A stretch of DNA of 30,866 nucleotides from a virus: positions 1-30,866 of IMG/VR virus record IMGVR_UViG_3300019756_000002; one strand, written 5' to 3'. Numbering within the stretch: position 1 is the stretch's first letter; every line of letters begins with the position of its first letter. The translations under genes were made by a program, and so were the position numbers. The notes beneath the pieces are model-generated. The model did no database searches, was not told the origin of the DNA, and saw nothing but the letters and a program-made list of their open reading frames with translations. Shown one piece after another: positions 15,265 through 30,866 of this stretch.

Positions 15265-17643
15265 ATGGCCGTTAATTTCGATAAACTTGTTCTGTCTCCA
15301 CCAATTCAGCAAAATATTATTGACCCGGTGACTCGTGAACCAACAATTGGGAAGATATTTTTTTTCAAGGCTGGCTGCTTGGGTTGCCCAAAACCTATAT
15401 ATCACCAATCTGGCGACCCGCAAAATCCATTTGTCCCCGCAACTGAGCTTGATTTAGATGGTGCAGGTGCATTGCCATTTGATATATGGTTTTACCCATT
15501 TAATGAAGATGATGAGACAGAAGCTGAGCTATATGATATCCAAGTTATTGCAACGGCAGATAATAGGCTAGTTTTGGAGCGTCTTTCTTGGCCGCCAACG
15601 ACTGAGTTTGACCCAACCCCAGATGAGGTTGGGAATAATCTTAATCTTTGCCCTAACTTTGAATTTCATAGTATGGTTAATGAGGCCATATATAGCATCC
15701 AGCCAATAAAAGTTAAAGAGGTAGTTTTTGCGTGGGGAACGTACACTATCGCCATAGAAAACCCAGCTGCATCAGACATAACCTACTCATCGACATTGCT
15801 CAATGAGGGGAGCGCAACCACGATTGAGCAAACACCACTAAATGTTGTAACATTTAGGGCTACCAATACCGCAGGCGTAAGCGGATTTAGACGAATAAGC
15901 TTCCCCCTTGGGCATTACAATGCGTTTCAAGGTAAGTTTATTTATATATCGCATTTCCTAGCTAATATTAGCAATACGCCAACTTTGACTGTAAAACTTC
16001 AAAGAACGAAAGGAAGTGATAACATTTTTGATTCAACTCCGATAAACATTGGGGTGTTAACAATACCGTCAAATAATCTTGAGAAAGTTGAGACTACGGT
16101 AACCATACCTGACATTACTGAAACTGGATTTAATTTAGATGACAGAGTTTACATTACTCTTGAACCGCCAGAAAATGTTGATTTCCAATTTTCAATGACT
16201 GCTAACTGGTATCAGATTGTCGATGCTGCTGATGCAAAAGGGATTGTGTCAAGATATCCGTTTGGGCTTTCTCTGGCTAATGCTTTTTTTAACACAGGAA
16301 ATTTAAATTGCCCAACACCAGTTCCGTCTAAGATTTATTCGAATAATAAAAACCAAGCCTGCGATGGCATGGCAATTACTCAAAGTGCTGGGTTTGTTCA
16401 ATCGATACATAGAACTGGGATGGTTGAAAGGGTTATGTCGGGTAGTGTTCATCAAGCTAACTGGGGGTTATTGCTTTCACAGTCAGAAGATAATTTGATT
16501 TATGCTAATGAAGTTCCTGTGGATACTGGCGAGACAGTAGTTAAACTTGCTCCATCCAATCGTTTAATATCGGTATTGCGAGATTCAGCCGTCAATAACA
16601 AACATGCATTTTCTGCACATAAAAAAAATTCATCCAGCTTTGAAGTCAGCGTTTTAAATAGCGGGACATTTAAGACCGACTGGGTTGCTAGTAATATAGC
16701 TTCATTGACGCTTACTAAAAATGGTACTGCATTTCCATTTGGACTAGAGGCAATAAAAACTAGCCCAACCACTATGACATTACAGTATGTAAACAATTTT
16801 ACTGTAGTAAATGGGTTTAGTAATCAATACCCATTTAGAGATTTGGAGCCTGGTCAACAAGGATTCCCAATCCCCCCTGTAGCTAACATGGGGAATTGGT
16901 TTGGTCAGGATTATACTGGCGGGGCTGGAAATGCACCACCATACGGAACTGGAGCAATAACATCTACAACAATCCCAGCCGGTGGCGGCAAAGGTGTAGG
17001 GTTAACGCTGACATATACAACTGCAACCTTGGCAAACTATGTTGCCAAATTTAGCAAGTATGCAGTTACTAGTGGTTCTAATGTCACTACATTTACAAGG
17101 TATCATGACTTCATTGAAGTACCTACAGTATCATCAAACATAAGAGCCATTCCATGGGGTGAAAATACAAACACCGGAGGCGTTGTTGGCGTTCCTACAG
17201 CCGGAGCATTTCATATTATTTATTCAGTGAAAACGCCGTCATCTCAATACCTCACTGGAAGAGAAAAAACGCTCATAATTGAAATACCACCATCCGTAAC
17301 AACTAGAGAAGAACTAATAGATCTTACCGTTAACAAACTTAGTGGTACAGAGTCATACACGGTTCAAGTAAATACGCTCCCTACTCACGGTGATTTTGTT
17401 ACATTTTCTAATGATATTTTTGATTATGCCGTTGTGTTTGTTCAGAAAGGTCAGGGGACTCCAAACATTCCGGCTGGAAATTTTGAAAGAACCTTTTTCC
17501 TTGAGTTCCCATCTGGAGAAACAATAGACAGCTTCAACAACAAATTTATTATATTTTTTGATTTTTTATTGCGTGCGCTTCCATCATTATCAGAGCTATC
17601 ATTGCCAAATGATACGCACTCATCATTCATGATTAACTTATAG
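15265..17643 (+). CDS. Tail fibre protein
   Basis: A 792-residue protein with AAGGT before ATG. The N-terminal 110 residues (LSPPIQQNIIDPVTREPTIG, KIFFFKAG..., then FDIWFYPFNEDDETEAELYD) match the virion-anchoring domain found at the start of many podovirus tail fibres and spikes. The rest is beta-rich, with Thr/Asn-rich strands and glycine-rich turns, as expected for a receptor-binding fibre. No endosialidase or lyase motif is visible. The last 80 residues (HGDFVTFSND, ERTFFLEFPSGETIDSFNNK) have a paralogue in the minus-strand gene at 21326-21679. The next gene starts 12 bases after the stop. Confidence 0.85.
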   Translation: MAVNFDKLVLSPPIQQNIIDPVTREPTIGKIFFFKAGCLGCPKPIYHQSGDPQNPFVPATELDLDGAGALPFDIWFYPFNEDDETEAELYDIQVIATADNRLVLERLSWPPTTEFDPTPDEVGNNLNLCPNFEFHSMVNEAIYSIQPIKVKEVVFAWGTYTIAIENPAASDITYSSTLLNEGSATTIEQTPLNVVTFRATNTAGVSGFRRISFPLGHYNAFQGKFIYISHFLANISNTPTLTVKLQRTKGSDNIFDSTPINIGVLTIPSNNLEKVETTVTIPDITETGFNLDDRVYITLEPPENVDFQFSMTANWYQIVDAADAKGIVSRYPFGLSLANAFFNTGNLNCPTPVPSKIYSNNKNQACDGMAITQSAGFVQSIHRTGMVERVMSGSVHQANWGLLLSQSEDNLIYANEVPVDTGETVVKLAPSNRLISVLRDSAVNNKHAFSAHKKNSSSFEVSVLNSGTFKTDWVASNIASLTLTKNGTAFPFGLEAIKTSPTTMTLQYVNNFTVVNGFSNQYPFRDLEPGQQGFPIPPVANMGNWFGQDYTGGAGNAPPYGTGAITSTTIPAGGGKGVGLTLTYTTATLANYVAKFSKYAVTSGSNVTTFTRYHDFIEVPTVSSNIRAIPWGENTNTGGVVGVPTAGAFHIIYSVKTPSSQYLTGREKTLIIEIPPSVTTREELIDLTVNKLSGTESYTVQVNTLPTHGDFVTFSNDIFDYAVVFVQKGQGTPNIPAGNFERTFFLEFPSGETIDSFNNKFIIFFDFLLRALPSLSELSLPNDTHSSFMINL

Positions 17644-17655
17644 GAGTAAAATAAA

Positions 17656-18006
17656 ATGCCAGCTCAACAATTAGTAATCGGCGTATCTGCAAATAACCAA
17701 ATACCAACTTGGTCTTTACCTCTTCCAAAGAAGTCTGGTGAATCAGTTCACTATCTTTCTGCTAGTGAACAAAATGTTTCCATAGATGTTCCGCCTTATG
17801 CAACTGATGCATTAATTGATACTGGCGGTGTAACATACTATGTTAGTGAAGATATTATTGAGCCTCTACCTCTTAATGTCCCTACTGATACAAAGCAAGT
17901 TCAAAATAGACAAATGGTGCAAGTTGCTGGTTTAGCACAAATAAATATTTTGACAGAAGACGCCGCATCAGTAAATATACAGTGGTTTAATAATTCCATA
18001 TTGTAA
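17656..18006 (+). CDS. Hypothetical tail-module protein
   Basis: A 116-residue protein with TAGGAG before ATG. It is probably all-beta, with no membrane segment or cysteine. Residues 19-38 (WSLPLPKKSGESVHYLSA) closely resemble the C-terminal end of the minus-strand gene at 21326-21679 (WLLPPSKKPGESVSYVA), and the leader AGGAGTAAAATAAAATG is the same in both. It is a likely minor tail or fibre-associated component by position. I recognise no family. Confidence 0.75.
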   Translation: MPAQQLVIGVSANNQIPTWSLPLPKKSGESVHYLSASEQNVSIDVPPYATDALIDTGGVTYYVSEDIIEPLPLNVPTDTKQVQNRQMVQVAGLAQINILTEDAASVNIQWFNNSIL

Positions 18007-19394: not shown

Positions 19395-19781
19395 ATGTTT
19401 AAACTTTCAGAAAATTCTAAATTGCGCCGTGACGGTGTCGACAATCGACTAATAGAAATTAGTAATTTGGCATTGAAAATTTCTACGATTGATTTTGGAC
19501 ACCCTGCCGACGCAGGCATCAGAACAGCTGAGCGGCAAAATGAATTGTTTAAAATGGGAAAATCATTGTGCGACGGTTATAAAATAAAGAGCAAACATCA
19601 AAGTGGAAAAGCTTTGGATTTTTATGCCTATGTCGATGGTAAGGCAAGCTGGAAAATTGAGCATTTAACGTTGGTTGCTGCTGCATTCCTGCAAGCTGCG
19701 TCAGTTTTGAGTTACAAATTGCATTGGGGTGGTTTTTGGAAAACATTCCAAGATTATCCTCATGTTGAACTTGTAGACTAA
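19395..19781 (+). CDS. Endolysin, M15-family (VanY/T5-type) zinc peptidase
   Basis: A 128-residue peptidase predicted to cut the peptide stems of peptidoglycan at lysis. Zinc ligands of the M15 fold are visible: H68 in SKHQSGKALDF, D75 in the same motif, and H123 in YPHVEL near the C-terminus. The substrate-binding arginine motif is GIRTAERQNELF (41-52). Length matches single-domain enzymes such as T5-type L-alanyl-D-glutamate peptidases. There is no signal peptide, so exit needs the holin nearby. The ATG lacks a clear ribosome-binding site. Confidence 0.9.
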   Translation: MFKLSENSKLRRDGVDNRLIEISNLALKISTIDFGHPADAGIRTAERQNELFKMGKSLCDGYKIKSKHQSGKALDFYAYVDGKASWKIEHLTLVAAAFLQAASVLSYKLHWGGFWKTFQDYPHVELVD

Positions 19782-19829
19782 ATTTAGTTATAAATATATA
19801 ATTTAACTTTTAAAAAAATTGGCAACATA

Positions 19830-20261
19830 ATGAACAAATCAGATATAAATAAAAATGTAGCATTAGTAAGCGGCATAATTTCAATATTATTTATTTTAAT
19901 GACTGGAGTAAGTTTTCACGAGAAAACTATGGCTGAACTAGAAGTTCTCAAGTCTCAACAAACAAAAGAAAAGGCTAGAATTAATGGAATTGAGGAAAGA
20001 TCCACTGAAAATTCAACGAACGTTAATGCACTACGTGCGAATTTTCAAGAAAATTCGAGAGCAATAATTACCAATGCTCAGAAAATTTCAAAATTGAAAG
20101 ATGCCAGTTCGCAATATGTTTTGCTTAGTCAGTTTCGCGGGTCGATGGATATAATCCATAAGGACCATCAAGATAGCATAAAATCACGACAGAAAGATAA
20201 TTTACACGTTAGTTCGGAATTTTCAAACGTCTATAGAACAATATTGAATCTTTACAAATGA
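19830..20261 (+). CDS. Membrane-anchored coiled-coil protein in lysis cassette
   Basis: A 143-residue protein with one N-terminal membrane segment (residues about 11-29, ALVSGIISILFILMTGVSF), followed by a long heptad-patterned coil (EKTMAELEVLKSQQTKEKAR, then NVNALRANFQENSRAI). Its place between endolysin and holin suggests a lysis-timing or antiholin-like role, or an envelope-spanning helper. Two spanin-like genes are already present further on, so it is unlikely to be Rz. Its stop overlaps the holin start. Confidence 0.72.
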   Translation: MNKSDINKNVALVSGIISILFILMTGVSFHEKTMAELEVLKSQQTKEKARINGIEERSTENSTNVNALRANFQENSRAIITNAQKISKLKDASSQYVLLSQFRGSMDIIHKDHQDSIKSRQKDNLHVSSEFSNVYRTILNLYK

Positions 20262-20503
20262 TGAAAAACGGTTTTTTAAAAGATGACGACAGTAGAAACA
20301 GTTCGAAAAGATTGTTAGGTTCAACACTGCTATTTACTGCGGCATTCGTCGGTGCAACGATATGCTATTTCGGAATATTCTTTGTTATAAAAGATGCTGA
20401 ATTTATAAAATTTTACATTAATGCTAGCTATTTATCAGGCTCATTTTTACTGGGCGTCGGTATTGCTGAAAAATTTGCACAAAGGAAGAAGCCGAGTGAA
20501 TAA
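20258..20503 (+). CDS. Holin
   Basis: An 81-residue protein; two adjacent ATGs (20258, 20261) are possible starts, both in an overlap with the preceding stop. The N-terminal pattern with SSKRL (KDDDSRNSSKRLLG), followed by two membrane segments (LLFTAAFVGATICYFGIFFV and SYLSGSFLLGVGIAEKF) and a basic tail (AQRKKPSE), is typical of a small holin family found beside endolysins. It should make the lesion that lets the cytoplasmic endolysin reach the wall. The end overlaps the spanin gene by 8 bases. Confidence 0.8.
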   Translation: MMKNGFLKDDDSRNSSKRLLGSTLLFTAAFVGATICYFGIFFVIKDAEFIKFYINASYLSGSFLLGVGIAEKFAQRKKPSE

Positions 20504-20717
20504 AATTAAATTAATAATAGCATCTGTTTCTGCTGCAATATTTTCGTTAGCAGGGGTGTTTTTTTACGGCTTATCAAAAGGCAAGAGAGAGAAAGAATAT
20601 GAGATACTTAAAAAAAATGCAGAAGATGCACTTGAAACTAATAAGCGTGAAGAGGCTCGCAGGAATGACAGCATTGACGATGTTGTTAAGCGGATGCGCG
20701 ACTACACCGATAAATAA
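20496..20717 (+). CDS. Inner-membrane spanin (Rz-type)
   Basis: About 73 residues from GTG 20496, which lies inside the holin stop region (GTGAATAA). This start gives a clean N-terminal membrane anchor (IKLIIASVSAAIFSLAGVFF) after two lysines, followed by a charged periplasmic helix (KGKREKEYEILKKNAEDALE, ending KRMRDYTDK). That is the classic i-spanin design. The next gene is embedded in another frame and encodes a lipoprotein, as in Rz/Rz1 pairs. Confidence 0.82.
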   Translation: MNKIKLIIASVSAAIFSLAGVFFYGLSKGKREKEYEILKKNAEDALETNKREEARRNDSIDDVVKRMRDYTDK

Positions 20718-20850
20718 TTATTGCTTGTGGGGTAAGCCGATAACGCTTACAAAATACCAGCTCAGCCAAATGTATAATGATGAAAGCATGCATAGTTTGC
20801 TAAGGCAAATAGATGGGCAGCAGCAAGAATGGAAAGCGCGTTGCGCGTAA
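20599..20850 (+). CDS. Outer-membrane spanin lipoprotein (Rz1-type), nested in Rz
   Basis: An 83-residue ORF in the frame overlapping the Rz-type gene. The lipobox LLSGC gives cysteine 33 as lipidation site after a basic, hydrophobic signal (KRLAGMTALTML). The mature part begins ATTPINNYCLWGKPITLT and ends in a helix with DGQQQEWKARC, resembling Rz1-like proteins that carry a Cys-Leu-...-Pro-I motif. With Rz it should fuse inner and outer membranes. GAGAGAAAG before 20599 supports that start. Confidence 0.82.
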   Translation: MRYLKKMQKMHLKLISVKRLAGMTALTMLLSGCATTPINNYCLWGKPITLTKYQLSQMYNDESMHSLLRQIDGQQQEWKARCA

Positions 20851-21325: not shown

Positions 21326-21679
21326 TCATCCGCTAAACGCAACATAACTAACTGATTCACCAGGCTTCTTTGATGGAGGCAAAAGCCAAGGATCAAGCGA
21401 TGAATAATCAGAAAACGATTTAAGCATTAAATTTCGCAAATTTTTAGTTTGACGCCGTAACTTTCTGTTGATTCGCTCCCGCTGGTCCAAAAATACATTC
21501 AATTTTTTATTAAAGCTGTCTATTGTTTCTCCAGCTGTTAACTCAAAAAAAAAGGTTCTTTCTAAATCTCCTGATGGCGGTGCTGGTGTCTCTTTCCCTT
21601 TCTGAAAAAAAACAAGATAAAAATCAGAATCATCATCGGAAAATGTAACAAAGTCACCATGGGAAAATGGGAATTGCAT
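21326..21679 (-). CDS. Inverted paralogue of tail-fibre C-terminus fused to next-gene N-terminus
   Basis: A 117-residue protein with AGGAG before ATG. Residues 5-60 (HGDFVTFSDD, ERTFFFEL, AGETIDSFNKK) parallel the end of the tail fibre encoded near 17384-17560. The C-terminal 20 residues (WLLPPSKKPGESVSYVA) parallel residues 19-36 of the protein at 17656. A basic helix (REMINRKL-like: RERINRKLRRQTKNLRNL) joins them. It therefore looks like a compressed, inverted relic or alternative version of a fibre-end locus that keeps its own ribosome-binding site. It may be expressed with RecT as a small virion or accessory protein. Confidence 0.72.
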   Translation of the reverse strand: MQFPFSHGDFVTFSDDDSDFYLVFFQKGKETPAPPSGDLERTFFFELTAGETIDSFNKKLNVFLDQRERINRKLRRQTKNLRNLMLKSFSDYSSLDPWLLPPSKKPGESVSYVAFSG

Positions 21680-21785: not shown

Positions 21786-22604
21786 TTAACTTTCTTCTAT
21801 TTCCTCTAATTGAAACTCTATGTATTGATCCCCACCATCTGATGTTCCTTCAATAAAATTTTGAGCATCATTATTTTTTATTTTATTTTTTTCTTCTGAA
21901 AAATCATCTGAAAATATTTCATTAAATTTTTCTTCTAGTTCAATCCCGCTGTTTGATATCCAGCTTTTTGAAGCATATTTTATTACTGTCTTAATGCACA
22001 TTTGGTCGTACCATTTATTCCAAATTGAATGCTCACCTTTATTCATTGATAAAGCTTTGCGTTTTTCTATTTCTGCTAAATCCATAACATGAGTCATAAA
22101 TGATCCATCAGGCATTTTTGCAACGCAATATGCCCCAACTGTTTTTTTCTGACTTCTGCTTGGATTTATGGCGAATATGTCCGCAATATCATGCTCAGGC
22201 ATGTCATACATGCCTTTGTAAATAAAGTGGTCGCCTTCTTTTACGATATCTCCCATGGCATGACGTATGAAGCCATTTTTAACAGCAATTTTTACTAATC
22301 CTTTATAACTTGGATCTAAACATATTTTCCCTTTTCTTGGGACGAGATAAGCATATCCCAATGAAGGATTTAATGAAAGCCCCATGTTCGCAACATTGCA
22401 TAATGCATCTTGAAATCCTTTTACATCATTGCGTATTGCATTTGCTAGATGATGGTTAGATTCGAATGCTTGTCTAGCAAAAGAAGCTTCTTTTGCAAAC
22501 GTCATTTGCCCTGCTGCAGATTTGTCTATTAGAGCATTAAATTTTGGCTCAACAGCCACAATGGCTTTTACAATATTTGTTCCTGTATTCATAATTTGTA
22601 CCAT
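21786..22604 (-). CDS. recT: RecT-family single-strand annealing protein
   Basis: A 272-residue protein that should coat ssDNA and anneal complementary strands in phage recombination. RecT hallmarks are present: an N-terminal region with NAIRNDVKGFQDALCNVANM, then LSLNPSLGYAYLVPRKGKI, then LDPSYKGLVKIAVKNG, followed by HSIWNKWYDQMCIKTVIKYA. The acidic C-terminal tail resembles tails that modulate DNA binding. It overlaps the upstream exonuclease gene by 16 bases, so the pair is coupled. A second ATG four codons later is an alternative start. Confidence 0.95.
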   Translation of the reverse strand: MVQIMNTGTNIVKAIVAVEPKFNALIDKSAAGQMTFAKEASFARQAFESNHHLANAIRNDVKGFQDALCNVANMGLSLNPSLGYAYLVPRKGKICLDPSYKGLVKIAVKNGFIRHAMGDIVKEGDHFIYKGMYDMPEHDIADIFAINPSRSQKKTVGAYCVAKMPDGSFMTHVMDLAEIEKRKALSMNKGEHSIWNKWYDQMCIKTVIKYASKSWISNSGIELEEKFNEIFSDDFSEEKNKIKNNDAQNFIEGTSDGGDQYIEFQLEEIEES

Positions 22605-23434
22605 TTTGGAAGGCCTATTCTAGGCATTCCCTTGTTTATTACGCCACTAAAAATTTGAACGTCAGATATAAAATCCTCTGCATTAATTTTCTCTTTATAT
22701 TTATCAATATTATTTACTGCCAAGTCAATTTCCGACATACCAACCTCTATTGAATCTTCCGGCATTAAGCTGCACACACACTCTGATTCTAAATTGCCAG
22801 ATGGTTCGCTAACAAATATATTGACAAAATATACTTCATCCGTGTCAAGTAATTGCTTTAAGCCATAGGTATATAATGCCGCTTGGATATGGCATCCAAA
22901 TTTTCCTATATACGATTCAATAGAGTCTATATCAAGCACGCCAGATTTTGGGGATATTTTTTTTAAGTCGCAACAAAAGAGCGCGCTTCCGATTCGCTTC
23001 ACGTAATCGAAGCGCGCTTTACAATTTACCCCTTTGTAATCAAATTCAATGCTTGATTCAGCTATGCCATCGCAAAGCAGTTTTTTTGCAAATTTAGATT
23101 TATTAAAAATTGACTCTTTCATCTCGTTGATTTTTTCAAAATCTTTTGAAGAAATCCACTCGACTCCATTGTCAGCACAGCATTGAATTTCATCTTTAGC
23201 TGCTTTCAACCTCTTATCGGGTTGTTCGCTCACAAAAAATTGTTTTTCAAAAAGCTCTGGCTCAAGAACTAAACAATGCAATGCAGAGCCTATCACCATA
23301 GCGTTAGTTTTTTTTATCTCTCCAACATGGTAAGGATGTCTTGCATAATGCTTTATAGCAGTAGAACCAAGAGCTGGTATTTTCAAATACTCATCAAATG
23401 AAATCTTTTTGCATACATCTTTATAGCTTTTCAT
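22589..23434 (-). CDS. RecE-like PD-(D/E)XK exonuclease
   Basis: A 281-residue nuclease, partner of RecT, expected to resect duplex ends 5'-3'. Visible motifs: GSALHCLVLEPELF (49-62, with the family histidine H53), E126, D143 in CKARFDYV, D156 and K158 in CDLKK, and the downstream Q184 of HIQAALY. These are the landmarks of the RecE C-terminal/DUF3799 nuclease domain, with almost nothing added at the N-terminus. It starts 3 bases after the csrA stop. Confidence 0.9.
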   Translation of the reverse strand: MKSYKDVCKKISFDEYLKIPALGSTAIKHYARHPYHVGEIKKTNAMVIGSALHCLVLEPELFEKQFFVSEQPDKRLKAAKDEIQCCADNGVEWISSKDFEKINEMKESIFNKSKFAKKLLCDGIAESSIEFDYKGVNCKARFDYVKRIGSALFCCDLKKISPKSGVLDIDSIESYIGKFGCHIQAALYTYGLKQLLDTDEVYFVNIFVSEPSGNLESECVCSLMPEDSIEVGMSEIDLAVNNIDKYKEKINAEDFISDVQIFSGVINKGMPRIGLPKWYKL

Positions 23435-23437
23435 GTC

Positions 23438-23641
23438 TTACTTGTTCCCATTTAATTCATGATTAACATCAAGCTCAGCATCTTGCCTTGCTTTAACCTC
23501 ATCTCGAAGAATTACAACATCTTTTGGCGCATCGATGCCTACTCGTGCAATACCGCTTTTTTTGCTTATTTCTAAAAATGTAATTACGATGTCGTCGCCA
23601 ATTAATATTTTCTGGCTATCTTTTCTTGTTAGAACTAACAT
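23438..23641 (-). CDS. csrA: CsrA/RsmA-family RNA-binding regulator
   Basis: A 67-residue homologue of the host post-transcriptional regulator that binds GGA motifs in mRNA leaders. The opening MLVLTRK keeps L4 and R6, IGDD follows at 14-17, APKDV at 38-42, and R46 in ILRDE corresponds to the RNA-binding R44 of E. coli CsrA. Compared with E. coli it has a two-residue insertion (KKSG) in the strand 2-3 turn. I chose the second ATG (23641), which matches the family N-terminus and overlaps the previous stop (TAATG). GGGAGG lies about 10 bases upstream. It is encoded in the early operon between an unknown gene and RecE/RecT. Confidence 0.93.
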   Translation of the reverse strand: MLVLTRKDSQKILIGDDIVITFLEISKKSGIARVGIDAPKDVVILRDEVKARQDAELDVNHELNGNK

Positions 23642-23979
23642 TATGCCGCTGCCTCCCATCTGCCGTGATTATAGTACTCAGAAATTTTCCGCTTATAAGC
23701 TTCTATTTGTTTGTAGTAAATCTCGTGCAGTTCATGAGCTATGAAATCATTAACATCATCAAATGCGGCAGTGAAAAGGTTTTCTTTTTTTTGCATCAGG
23801 TCTGCAATGACGTCAGAGTTGTCATTGATAATTCTATAAACATGATCTTCATTTGCTTCTTCAATTAGAACGTTAGATATTGTTTTATAGCTGAACCCAT
23901 TAAGATTGCTTAACATAGCTTGTCTTGCAATAGCCATTGCGGTTTTTGGCATTTTGTCCTCTAGTGAAAATACATTCAT
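23641..23979 (-). CDS. Hypothetical early protein heading the csrA-recET operon
   Basis: A 112-residue soluble protein with AGAGGA about 8 bases before ATG. It is predicted mostly helical (MAIARQAMLSNLNGFSYKTI, then FIAHELHEIYYKQIEAYKRK), acidic in the middle, with no cysteine pairs or membrane segments. It is the first gene after the operator-bearing promoter at 24015-24043 and is coupled to csrA by a TAATG overlap. I recognise no family. Candidates would be a nuclease inhibitor or regulator, but nothing supports one over another. Confidence 0.8.
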   Translation of the reverse strand: MNVFSLEDKMPKTAMAIARQAMLSNLNGFSYKTISNVLIEEANEDHVYRIINDNSDVIADLMQKKENLFTAAFDDVNDFIAHELHEIYYKQIEAYKRKISEYYNHGRWEAAA

Positions 23980-27434: not shown

Positions 27435-27700
27435 AATGTTTTCCTTAAAATATAATTGGTTATGTCAGAGCAAGAGTCAGTTGTGCATGGTGAAAAATTG
27501 TGATCATAAGTTGAATTATCTGTGTAATGATAAGCCGGCAATGAGTAGCCATCAGGCATATTTATTTTCATCATCTCTACAGTACAAGCTCCAAACATGT
27601 TTACTTTTTTCCCATATGCCCGCGGCATTTTTCTTTTTACTGCCCTGTAAACTCTTAATCTCTCTATATCAGAAATTTTATCTATATTTTCGTGTGTCAT
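27431..27700 (-). CDS. Hypothetical accessory protein
   Basis: An 89-residue protein overlapping the preceding gene by 23 bases and the following start by ATGA. It begins with an acidic helical stretch (ENIDKISDIERLRVYRAVKR), then a basic patch and a cysteine/histidine-containing C-terminus (HYTDNSTYDHNFSPCTTDSC). I recognise no family. The tight overlaps support a real gene. Confidence 0.75.
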   Translation of the reverse strand: MTHENIDKISDIERLRVYRAVKRKMPRAYGKKVNMFGACTVEMMKINMPDGYSLPAYHYTDNSTYDHNFSPCTTDSCSDITNYILRKTL

Positions 27701-28097
27701 ATTTTTCTCCGGTTATTGGGTTTAAATTAAACAGGTCTGTAGTTAAAGCTACGTATTTTTCAAAAAATCTTGGAGATAATTTATCTATTACTAACCAGAT
27801 GTCACTCATTACCTGAAAATTTGTGAAGTTACCTTTGTATTCGTAAGCTCTTGTTAAGCATACGTTTATTATTCTTCCGGCATCATAAATACACTCGTCA
27901 ATGTTCGACAAATCTAATTCTACATCTGTGGGCAATCTTTCTGAAATTTCTATCAAAAAATCAATGTCTTCTTTCGACAAATCTAAGTCTATATGCTGGC
28001 AATCTTTTTCTAAAATTTTTATCAAAAAATTAATGTCTTCTACTGCCCTCTCTGCCATAATTAATTGTAAATAGTAAAATTCTTTTAGTTTTATCAT
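27678..28097 (-). CDS. Hypothetical protein with 23-residue tandem duplication
   Basis: A 139-residue acidic, helical protein starting in an ATGA overlap with the HTH gene. An in-frame 69-base duplication (27907-27975 and 27976-28044) gives two copies of a DxxFLIxIxE...D(L/V)(D/E)LDLS unit (DINFLIKILEKDCQHIDLDL and DIDFLIEISERLPTDVELDL). The copies have diverged at the protein level, so the duplication is not brand-new. No known domain. Confidence 0.78.
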   Translation of the reverse strand: MIKLKEFYYLQLIMAERAVEDINFLIKILEKDCQHIDLDLSKEDIDFLIEISERLPTDVELDLSNIDECIYDAGRIINVCLTRAYEYKGNFTNFQVMSDIWLVIDKLSPRFFEKYVALTTDLFNLNPITGEKYDTRKYR

Positions 28098-28330
28098 TTT
28101 TTATTCCCCATTGTTGATTCTGATGTTGTTTTGTATGTTGGTTTGTTTTTTACCCATTCATCGAGTTCAATTCGGCGATATCTTACTGCGCGACCTATTT
28201 TTATGAAAGGTGGCGATTCAATTTTTCCGCCTTTCACGCCAAGAACTCGCAATTGGTTCAAATATGATGCGCTTAATCCTAAATAGTTTGCTGCCTCTGC
28301 AGTAGTTAATAATTTTTTGTGATCACTCAT
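28094..28330 (-). CDS. AlpA/excisionase-like winged-HTH DNA-binding protein
   Basis: A 78-residue protein with the MerR-type HTH_17 signature: LLTTAEAANYLGLSASYLNQ (7-26), then a wing containing PPFIKIGRAVRYRRIELDEW (40-59). Such proteins serve as excisionases or as transcription regulators. As no integrase is recognisable in this genome, a regulatory role is likelier here. It lies in the operon controlled by the operator-bearing promoter at 29095-29123 and is downstream of the disturbed region at 28368-28587, which may affect its transcription. Confidence 0.85.
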   Translation of the reverse strand: MSDHKKLLTTAEAANYLGLSASYLNQLRVLGVKGGKIESPPFIKIGRAVRYRRIELDEWVKNKPTYKTTSESTMGNKK

Positions 28331-28367
28331 TGTTTTCTCTTTTGGTTAATAGATTAATTAATTATAA

Positions 28368-28394
28368 TTGGCCTAGTGATAAGGTTCGCCCGAT
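28368..28394. repeat. 27-bp direct repeat, copy 1
   Basis: Exact 27-base match to 28561-28587, period 193. It begins TTGGCCTAGTGATAAGG and ends TTCGCCCGAT. Here it encodes the start of the holin-like fragment (DKVRPI). The repeat flanks foreign-looking, GC-richer DNA. Confidence 0.95.
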
Positions 28395-28569
28395 CATCAC
28401 CTATGCGTTTTTCATTCTGTTCGCCACGGTCAAAACTGCTGCACTGTTCAAGCTATTGGATCAGGGTGTCGGAATTACCGACGGACTGATTGCCGTTTGG
28501 GACGCTGAAACGCAGGCGTTATTTGCCGCTGTCATGTCCTTCTGGTTCGGTCAACGCGCCTTGGCCTAG
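28378..28569 (+). pseudogene. Fragment of a GTA/3TM-type holin gene, foreign composition
   Basis: In frame from 28378 to the TAG at 28567-28569 this encodes 63 residues (DKVRPIITYAFFILFATVKT, then LKLLDQ-type loop, ALFAAVMSFWFGQRALA). It matches the C-terminal two-thirds of three-membrane-segment holins of the GTA_holin_3TM type ('RPxITYAF' and 'FWFGxRAL'). The N-terminal part, a ribosome-binding site and a start are missing. By hand count 87 of 166 inner bases (28395-28560) are G or C, far above its surroundings. The stop is followed at once by TGA and TAA. It is either a recent patch of foreign DNA or an assembly chimera, and probably not functional. Confidence 0.7.
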
Positions 28570-29049
28570 TGATAAGGTTCGCCCGATATACGGCCAGCTC
28601 TCCTCTAATTTACGTTCATAAAGTTCAATTTCCATTTTTATTTCATCCATTTTTAGGTTTTTAGTAGCATTATGCAATTCTTTTTCTGTTAATTTAACGT
28701 TTTCCATTTTTGAAATCGTTTTAAATAAGCTCCATTCATCCATTAATTTCCCATTATCGTCAGTAACTTCAAAATCAAGATCAAATTTCCAGAGACAGTT
28801 TAGCCAAAAATAGCTGCTGTCTAGGTCGAAATCAAATTTTGCGTTTGTTATACACCCTAACCATACTATTTTTGCATCTATGTGTAAATTAACTATCTTA
28901 TTGTCTATTTTAAACATTAAATTTTTTATTAAATGTCCACTTCCTACTTTTATTGTTTGGCTTTTATATTCAAGTCGATAATTTAATTCAATCGATGTTT
29001 TTGCAGACTCTAACGCTTCTACTAGGTCGTTTATTTTGACGTTTCTCAT
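28519..29049 (-). CDS. Hypothetical protein, first gene of accessory operon, altered C-terminus
   Basis: A 176-residue protein from the ATG at 29049 with AGGAG spaced seven bases away; an upstream in-frame ATG (29103) would precede the predicted transcript start. The body (VEALESAKTSIELNYRLEYK, then FDLDSSYFWLNCLWKFDLDF) looks alpha/beta, without a known family. The last 13 residues (GALTEPEGHDSGK) are encoded by the inserted holin fragment read antisense. If the 193-base unit is removed, the gene ends at once ...LSLGQL-stop, which is likely the ancestral C-terminus. Confidence 0.75.
   Translation of the reverse strand: MRNVKINDLVEALESAKTSIELNYRLEYKSQTIKVGSGHLIKNLMFKIDNKIVNLHIDAKIVWLGCITNAKFDFDLDSSYFWLNCLWKFDLDFEVTDDNGKLMDEWSLFKTISKMENVKLTEKELHNATKNLKMDEIKMEIELYERKLEESWPYIGRTLSLGQGALTEPEGHDSGK
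28561..28587. repeat. 27-bp direct repeat, copy 2
   Basis: Second copy of the 28368-28394 repeat. On the minus strand it encodes residues near the C-terminus of the operon's first gene (IGRTLSLGQ). On the plus strand it carries the holin fragment's terminal ALA codons and consecutive TAG, TGA and TAA stops. Confidence 0.95.
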
Positions 29050-29094
29050 TTTTGCTTCTCCTGTCTTGTTTTGTTTTGTTGTTTCAGTGTTTGT

Positions 29095-29123
29095 AGTGTA
29101 CACACAATCAGAACAGGCGTAAA
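29095..29123 (-). promoter_or_regulatory. Operator-bearing promoter of the minus-strand accessory operon
   Basis: Read on the minus strand: TTTACG (29123-29118), 17-base spacer, TACACT (29100-29095). The dyad TGTACACACAATCAGAACA (29097-29115) lies in exactly the same register as in the csrA-recET promoter, and the -10 hexamers are identical. Confidence 0.78.
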
Positions 29124-30465: not shown

Positions 30466-30866
30466 AAAAAACTGCTATGAAATACAATATAGAACAAACG
30501 ACAGAGAGGCTGATGAAAAAGATATGATTGAGTTAAATAATGATTTTTCTGGGGGAATACTTGAAAAGCGCCGGCTAGATTTTTGCCGAGACGACGGGCA
30601 AATTTCCCGTATTTTTATACATTTTAATTACGTACGGGCTGAGTTGCGTCACAAAACAGTTTGCTTAGGTGAATTAAATATTTTAAATAGAGTTTATAGA
30701 GAGGATTTCAGGGGGATTTTTATCTGTTGTGAAAATTCAATATCAGCCGATTTTATTGGTAATATTTGTGCAATTGAGGAGGTTTGCAATAAAATCAACA
30801 TAGACAAGGCTGACGCATCTGGCGTTTTAAATTATTTATTTGATTGCGATTATGTAAACGAGTTAA
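30455..30866 (+). CDS. 5' part of junction-spanning hypothetical protein
   Basis: It begins at ATG 30455, with GGGAA upstream, inside the end of pentapeptide gene C, and runs off the window. The frame continues at base 1 when the 123-base overlap is collapsed, ending at 242. The N-terminal half is charged (YRTNDREADEKDMIELNNDF), followed by strands (RIFIHFNYVRAELRHKTVCL). No family recognised. See the other part at 1-242 for its likely paralogue. Confidence 0.85.
   Translation, partial: MIPEKNCYEIQYRTNDREADEKDMIELNNDFSGGILEKRRLDFCRDDGQISRIFIHFNYVRAELRHKTVCLGELNILNRVYREDFRGIFICCENSISADFIGNICAIEEVCNKINIDKADASGVLNYLFDCDYVNEL
30744..30866. repeat. Terminal direct repeat, right copy (assembly overlap)
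   Basis: Identical to bases 1-123. It shows that the contig closes on itself. One copy is redundant, and the circular genome is 30743 bp. Confidence 0.95.

Follow-up and report, generated by a model that had tools for sequence, protein, structure and literature searches.

Results

The phage and its lysis and recombination genes

The stretch of DNA that was analysed (the window) is an IMG/VR virus record of 30.9 kb, the ends of which overlap exactly by 123 bp (1-123 = 30744-30866). Given this exact terminal repeat, the contig is circular or terminally redundant, and is complete as assembled. Profile searches identified a phage with a P22-type portal (P22-like portal PF16510, E=9.9e-70), along with genes for the terminase large subunit, the terminase small subunit, and a major head protein. 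A lysis module of the phage's own, as well as a RecT-like annealing protein and its exonuclease VIII-like partner, are also encoded (Table 1). Additionally, a CsrA-family regulator is present at 23438-23659 (PF02599, E=6.1e-19).

Two further duplications were detected in the window. (i) Within the gene at 27678-28097, positions 27904-28041 form a tandem duplication with a period of 69 bp, the units being ~91% alike over their matched stretches. (ii) Positions 17386-17757, covering the start of one gene and the end of the large gene before it (15265-17643, which resembles a tail-fibre gene in its position), recur as an inverted, diverged copy at 21341-21661 (76-78% over 176 and 50 nt), in which the copied sequence is encoded on the minus strand; this copy may be a spare tip for the tail fibre or what is left of an inverted duplication.

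Table 1. Positions of the insert, its joints and the associated phage genes in the window
Feature	Position	Strand	Evidence
Endolysin and Rz/Rz1-like spanins (the phage's own lysis module)	19395-20850	+	phrog_465, E=4.6e-40; phrog_1026; phrog_1275
RecT-like single-strand annealing protein (candidate agent)	21786-22604	-	PF03837, E=4.3e-27; phrog_148, E=1e-48
Exonuclease VIII-like partner of RecT	22589-23434	-	phrog_412, E=3.2e-38; PF12684, E=2.2e-17
HTH_17 DNA-binding protein (intact neighbour gene)	28094-28330	-	PF12728, E=1.2e-9
Repeat copy 1, 27 bp: TTGGCC + TAGTGATAA + GGTTCGCCCGAT	28368-28394		exact repeat
Joint 1 microhomology, phage to donor: CGCCCGAT, 8 bp contiguous	28387-28394		donor relatives L002, L013, L077
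Foreign insert, 166 bp, 52.4% GC	28395-28560	+	94.1% DNA identity to L077 (28384-28570); phrog_6637, E=7.4e-15
Phage gene of unknown function, likely start 29049	28519-29103	-	no Pfam, PHROG or phage relative
Repeat copy 2, 27 bp	28561-28587		exact repeat
Joint 2 microhomology, donor to phage: TTGGCC, 6 bp	28561-28566		donor relatives
Repeat core TAGTGATAA, 9 bp, antisense of Leu-Ser-Leu codons	28567-28575		missing from donors at this place

A GC-rich insert between exact direct repeats

A preliminary description of this DNA had reported a GC-rich holin fragment between two 27-bp direct repeats, and these measurements held: the repeats are exact and spaced 193 bp apart, and 87 of the 166 bases between them are G or C, compared to 31.6% and 29.8% GC in the 500 bp on either side (given there as roughly 30%). 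Insert-level GC is also found elsewhere in the contig, with 0.4% of its 166-bp windows reaching 52.4% and the richest attaining 53.6%. No third copy of the repeat exists elsewhere in the window at up to 3 mismatches (shuffled sequences also yield zero), nor does the exact 27-mer have another match in IMG/VR, in which the right flank is likewise unmatched. The region does not fold better than its shuffles (z=-0.10), and contains no Rfam family or tRNA.

The insert encodes an internal piece of a holin-like protein

The match to a holin-like gene was borne out at 75 IMG/VR loci and 36 genome loci. Together with the repeat edges, the insert encodes residues ~86-146 of a 152-amino-acid protein, so that the truncation first described as N-terminal is real (~85 residues are absent) but is not confined to that end, 6 C-terminal residues being absent as well. 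The source gene family belongs to prophage/GTA-like lysis cassettes, mainly of Alphaproteobacteria. Over positions 28384-28570, the best DNA matches were L077 (94.1%) and L002 (93.0%). The former is a locus of Pseudovibrio exalbescens in which the intact gene is preceded by a tail-tip J-like gene and has a gene for a phage lysozyme downstream. Across 59 codons, the insert differs from this relative at nine codons synonymously and at none nonsynonymously; the piece was thus taken from a functional gene either not long ago or in the tube.

The fragment matches phrog_6637, a family listed in PHROGs as of unknown function, over profile positions 99-154 of 160; the full-length P. exalbescens relative matches the same profile with E=1.3e-38. 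Against GTA_holin_3TM (PF11351), this relative attains 17.4 bits (E=0.0063), below the gathering cut-off of 24.8, and the fragment itself gives no Pfam match. As such, "holin" is a reasonable reading from context, with no formal assignment.

The insert region is the only stretch of the window with a DNA-level match to the donor loci. A DNA search with the insert returned only a 26-bp chance match in INPHARED and nothing among plasmids. A host common to phage and donor is not shown, given that the search for a donor identical to the insert yielded nothing above 94% and that no relative of the phage terminase was seen in six records containing the donor gene.

The donor cassette was also encountered in other settings. 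At L091:4878-5335, in a PVC-group symbiont of Bugula neritina, an isolated 458-bp piece of the donor gene and its neighbour (~50% GC amid 32-40% GC) contains an in-frame stop and has no flanking repeats; this is a second case of the donor cassette in scraps. In Bartonella rattimassiliensis, a Solemya symbiont, a Rhizobiaceae MAG, and Pseudovibrio (L086, L084, L079, and L077, respectively), the lysis cassette occurs at ~90% DNA identity, with unrelated flanks in some of the four. Either the lysis module seems to travel widely between phages or the MAGs are affected by mis-binning.

Both edges of the repeat match the donor gene

In the donor genes, the segment corresponding to the insert is preceded by GT(G/T)CGCCCGAT and followed by CGCGCC-TTGGCC-AAGTTCCGC. 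The right 8-12 bp of the repeat are thus the donor bases preceding the insert, with 11 of 12 positions matching at joint 1 when the bases ahead of CGCCCGAT are counted, while the left 6 bp of the repeat are the donor bases following it. The middle 9 bp were matched in no donor relative at either place. At random phage/donor joints, overlaps of at least 8 bp and at least 6 bp would occur by chance with frequencies of 1.25e-5 and 3.4e-4, respectively. The locus combines an identifiable foreign template (94.1% to L077 across 187 bp) with microhomology at both joints, as in microhomology-templated insertion. Since shared stretches of 6-12 bp are too short for an assembler to join on, the joints would have existed in DNA molecules; of the "assembly or library chimera" proposed at first, a pure assembler error is thus unlikely, while a chimeric library molecule is possible.

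The insertion alters the end of one minus-strand gene

Located at the 3' end of a minus-strand gene, the insertion leaves all other genes intact; only 12-15% of positions would be equally harmless. This gene now runs into the insert, such that 13 foreign residues (GALTEPEGHDSGK) replace its last leucine, and this altered end is the only visible effect. As proposed in the preliminary description, removal of one 193-bp unit restores a stop (...ESWPYIGRTLSLGQL-stop); this by itself does not show the repeat to be native, however, as removal of the insert plus both repeats also gives a proper ending (...ESWPYL-stop). The suggestion drawn from it in that description, that one repeat copy is probably native, finds support in the repeat anatomy: the 27-bp sequence is probably phage DNA that was duplicated by the return jump, considering that its core is AT-rich, is missing from the donors here, and reads Leu-Ser-Leu in the phage gene. 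The triplets TAG TGA TAA are indeed present in the holin frame; instead of closing the fragment as a gene-end feature, however, they are the opposite strand of those Leu-Ser-Leu codons. An engineered triple-stop cassette was ruled out on the same grounds, all nine bases fitting the minus-strand gene.

Close relatives of the disrupted gene, the capsid, and the portal were not found in IMG/VR, where a terminase search returned only two distant contigs (L113, 38%; L114, 37%), neither with the relevant gene. No close phage relative or empty site was found in IMG/VR or INPHARED, collections that may omit near relatives by design.

Discussion

The anatomy of this locus very probably reflects two template switches, whether these took place in a cell or in a tube, and the two explanations offered at the outset (illegitimate recombination with a prophage/GTA-like locus, or a library chimera) were the right pair to consider. 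Between them, we favour a templated-insertion scar made in the living phage, with a probability of about 0.5. While the phage genome was being replicated or repaired, a strand copying 28368-28394 would quit the phage template and pair by 8-12 bases (..CGCCCGAT) with single-stranded donor DNA from a holin-like gene, the donor being a resident prophage or GTA-like element. After 166 bases had been copied, return pairing through TTGGCC would bring the strand back to the phage template 27 bases upstream of its exit point, and a second copying of these 27 bases would generate the flanking repeats. Such an exchange could plausibly be carried out by the RecT and exonuclease VIII that the phage encodes; for RecET, recombination between homologies of 5-13 bp at about 1e-8 is reported in PMC2327257, citing Shiraishi 2002. 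The sequence itself shows the repeat, the donor family, the microhomology at the two joints, the repeat core missing from the donors, and the recombinase genes; the order of the two switches, their occurrence in vivo, the part played by RecT, and the absence of function for the insert are what we infer.

An origin in the living phage is favoured by the presence of both the annealing protein and its partner exonuclease, and by the fact that the insertion damages no gene. The harmless landing place and a contig with closing ends were both counted in its support, with the landing-place odds of 12-15% constituting only moderate evidence. The event was probably recent, to judge from the identity of the repeats and the purely synonymous differences between the fragment and its intact relative.

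It is possible, if rather doubtful, that the same two switches were instead made in the tube, with DNA of the phage and of a donor-bearing organism from one sample being joined in MDA or library PCR, early enough for the chimera to dominate the assembly. At 6 and 8-12 nt, the overlaps at the joints agree with the spectrum of MDA chimeras, for which the commonest overlap is 7 nt, over 95% span 3-13 nt, and the strongest preference is for 12-13 nt (PMC5372508); joint microhomology thus cannot separate an in vivo event from a tube chimera. The undecayed state of the fragment and the lack of similar sequence at the insertion site in other IMG/VR records also suit this origin. Conversely, two direct inter-organism switches would be needed in one molecule, while 85% of MDA chimeras were inverted, and mostly intramolecular, in PMC1855051, a difference that is not decisive. 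The landing spot, moreover, breaks no gene, the contig holds no other donor matches, and the assembled consensus, the ends of which close, includes the insert, which suggests that the inserted form was the majority form assembled.

A different history, in which the whole 220 bp would be foreign, is improbable. Here, a 193-bp circle composed of the holin fragment and TAGTGATAA would have been copied 1.14 times and inserted into a gene that once ended ESWPYL-stop, an ending as proper as the alternative. The repeat does have 52% GC, and its codon use is unusual for this phage, ranking among the lowest 1.7% of nine-codon windows. As a sign of foreign origin, however, this codon bias is ambiguous, because the repeat matches a GC-rich donor and atypical codons are to be expected if such a match was needed. 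The circle would further require two blunt joints lacking any microhomology and would leave 9 bases unaccounted for; these bases are AT-rich and, in the frame of the phage gene, encode Leu-Ser-Leu.

Most improbable is a partly lost ancestral or functional holin gene of the phage, or a mobile element with a 27-bp target-site duplication: the fragment does retain an open plus-strand frame of 79 codons (28330-28569) and a predicted membrane segment, and its direct repeats superficially resemble a target-site duplication, but the phage's own endolysin and spanins sit elsewhere, insert GC is sharply unlike that of the surroundings, both gene ends are absent, the repeat edges belong to the donor gene, and there are neither inverted repeats at the ends nor element ends common to other loci, the 27-mer and its joints being absent from all other loci compared.

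Returning to the scar proposed for the living phage, a function for the insert is unlikely, as the phage has an endolysin and spanins of its own; the plus-strand frame starts in the intergenic region, lacks the N-terminal half of the protein, and contains one predicted membrane segment. The feature would thus be an ordinary recombination scar, or possibly a laboratory chimera. If made in the living phage, it would constitute an unusually readable and recent case of illegitimate recombination; the two joints, the family of the donor, the duplicated target, and a candidate recombinase can all be seen in it. More tentatively, phages encoding RecT and exonuclease VIII might in nature capture short patches of resident prophages by means of paired microhomologies. 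If so, capture scars would show a target duplication with both edges matching the donor, providing a searchable signature of phage mosaicism in progress. If made in the tube, the locus would instead caution that what looks like horizontal transfer on this scale, when seen in a single viral contig, can be a chimera.

Comparison with known systems

The insert is a piece of a gene of the type found in GTA_holin_3TM (PF11351)/phrog_6637 lysis cassettes; the phage differs in having only residues ~86-146, and the full-length relative is itself sub-threshold in Pfam. With MDA chimeras (PMC1855051, PMC5372508), the locus shares two-template overlaps of 6 and 8-12 nt at its joints, but it differs in requiring two direct-orientation inter-organism switches in one molecule, in being part of an assembled consensus, and in occupying a harmless site. 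In the Acinetobacter transformation studies of de Vries and Wackernagel 2002 and Hulter and Wackernagel 2008, as presented in PMC4437187, short foreign DNA is likewise integrated, and the ends formed by homology-facilitated and double illegitimate recombination similarly display microhomology or no homology. Compared to the system described there, the recipient in our case is a phage, the target is duplicated, and there is no sign of transformation. Relative to RecET/Red and other illegitimate phage recombination (PMC2327257), the event is read from sequence, and a 166-bp internal gene scrap lies within a duplicated target in place of a functional-module exchange; the likeness consists in a phage-encoded annealing recombinase, very short homologies, and the capture of foreign phage DNA with a mosaic result.
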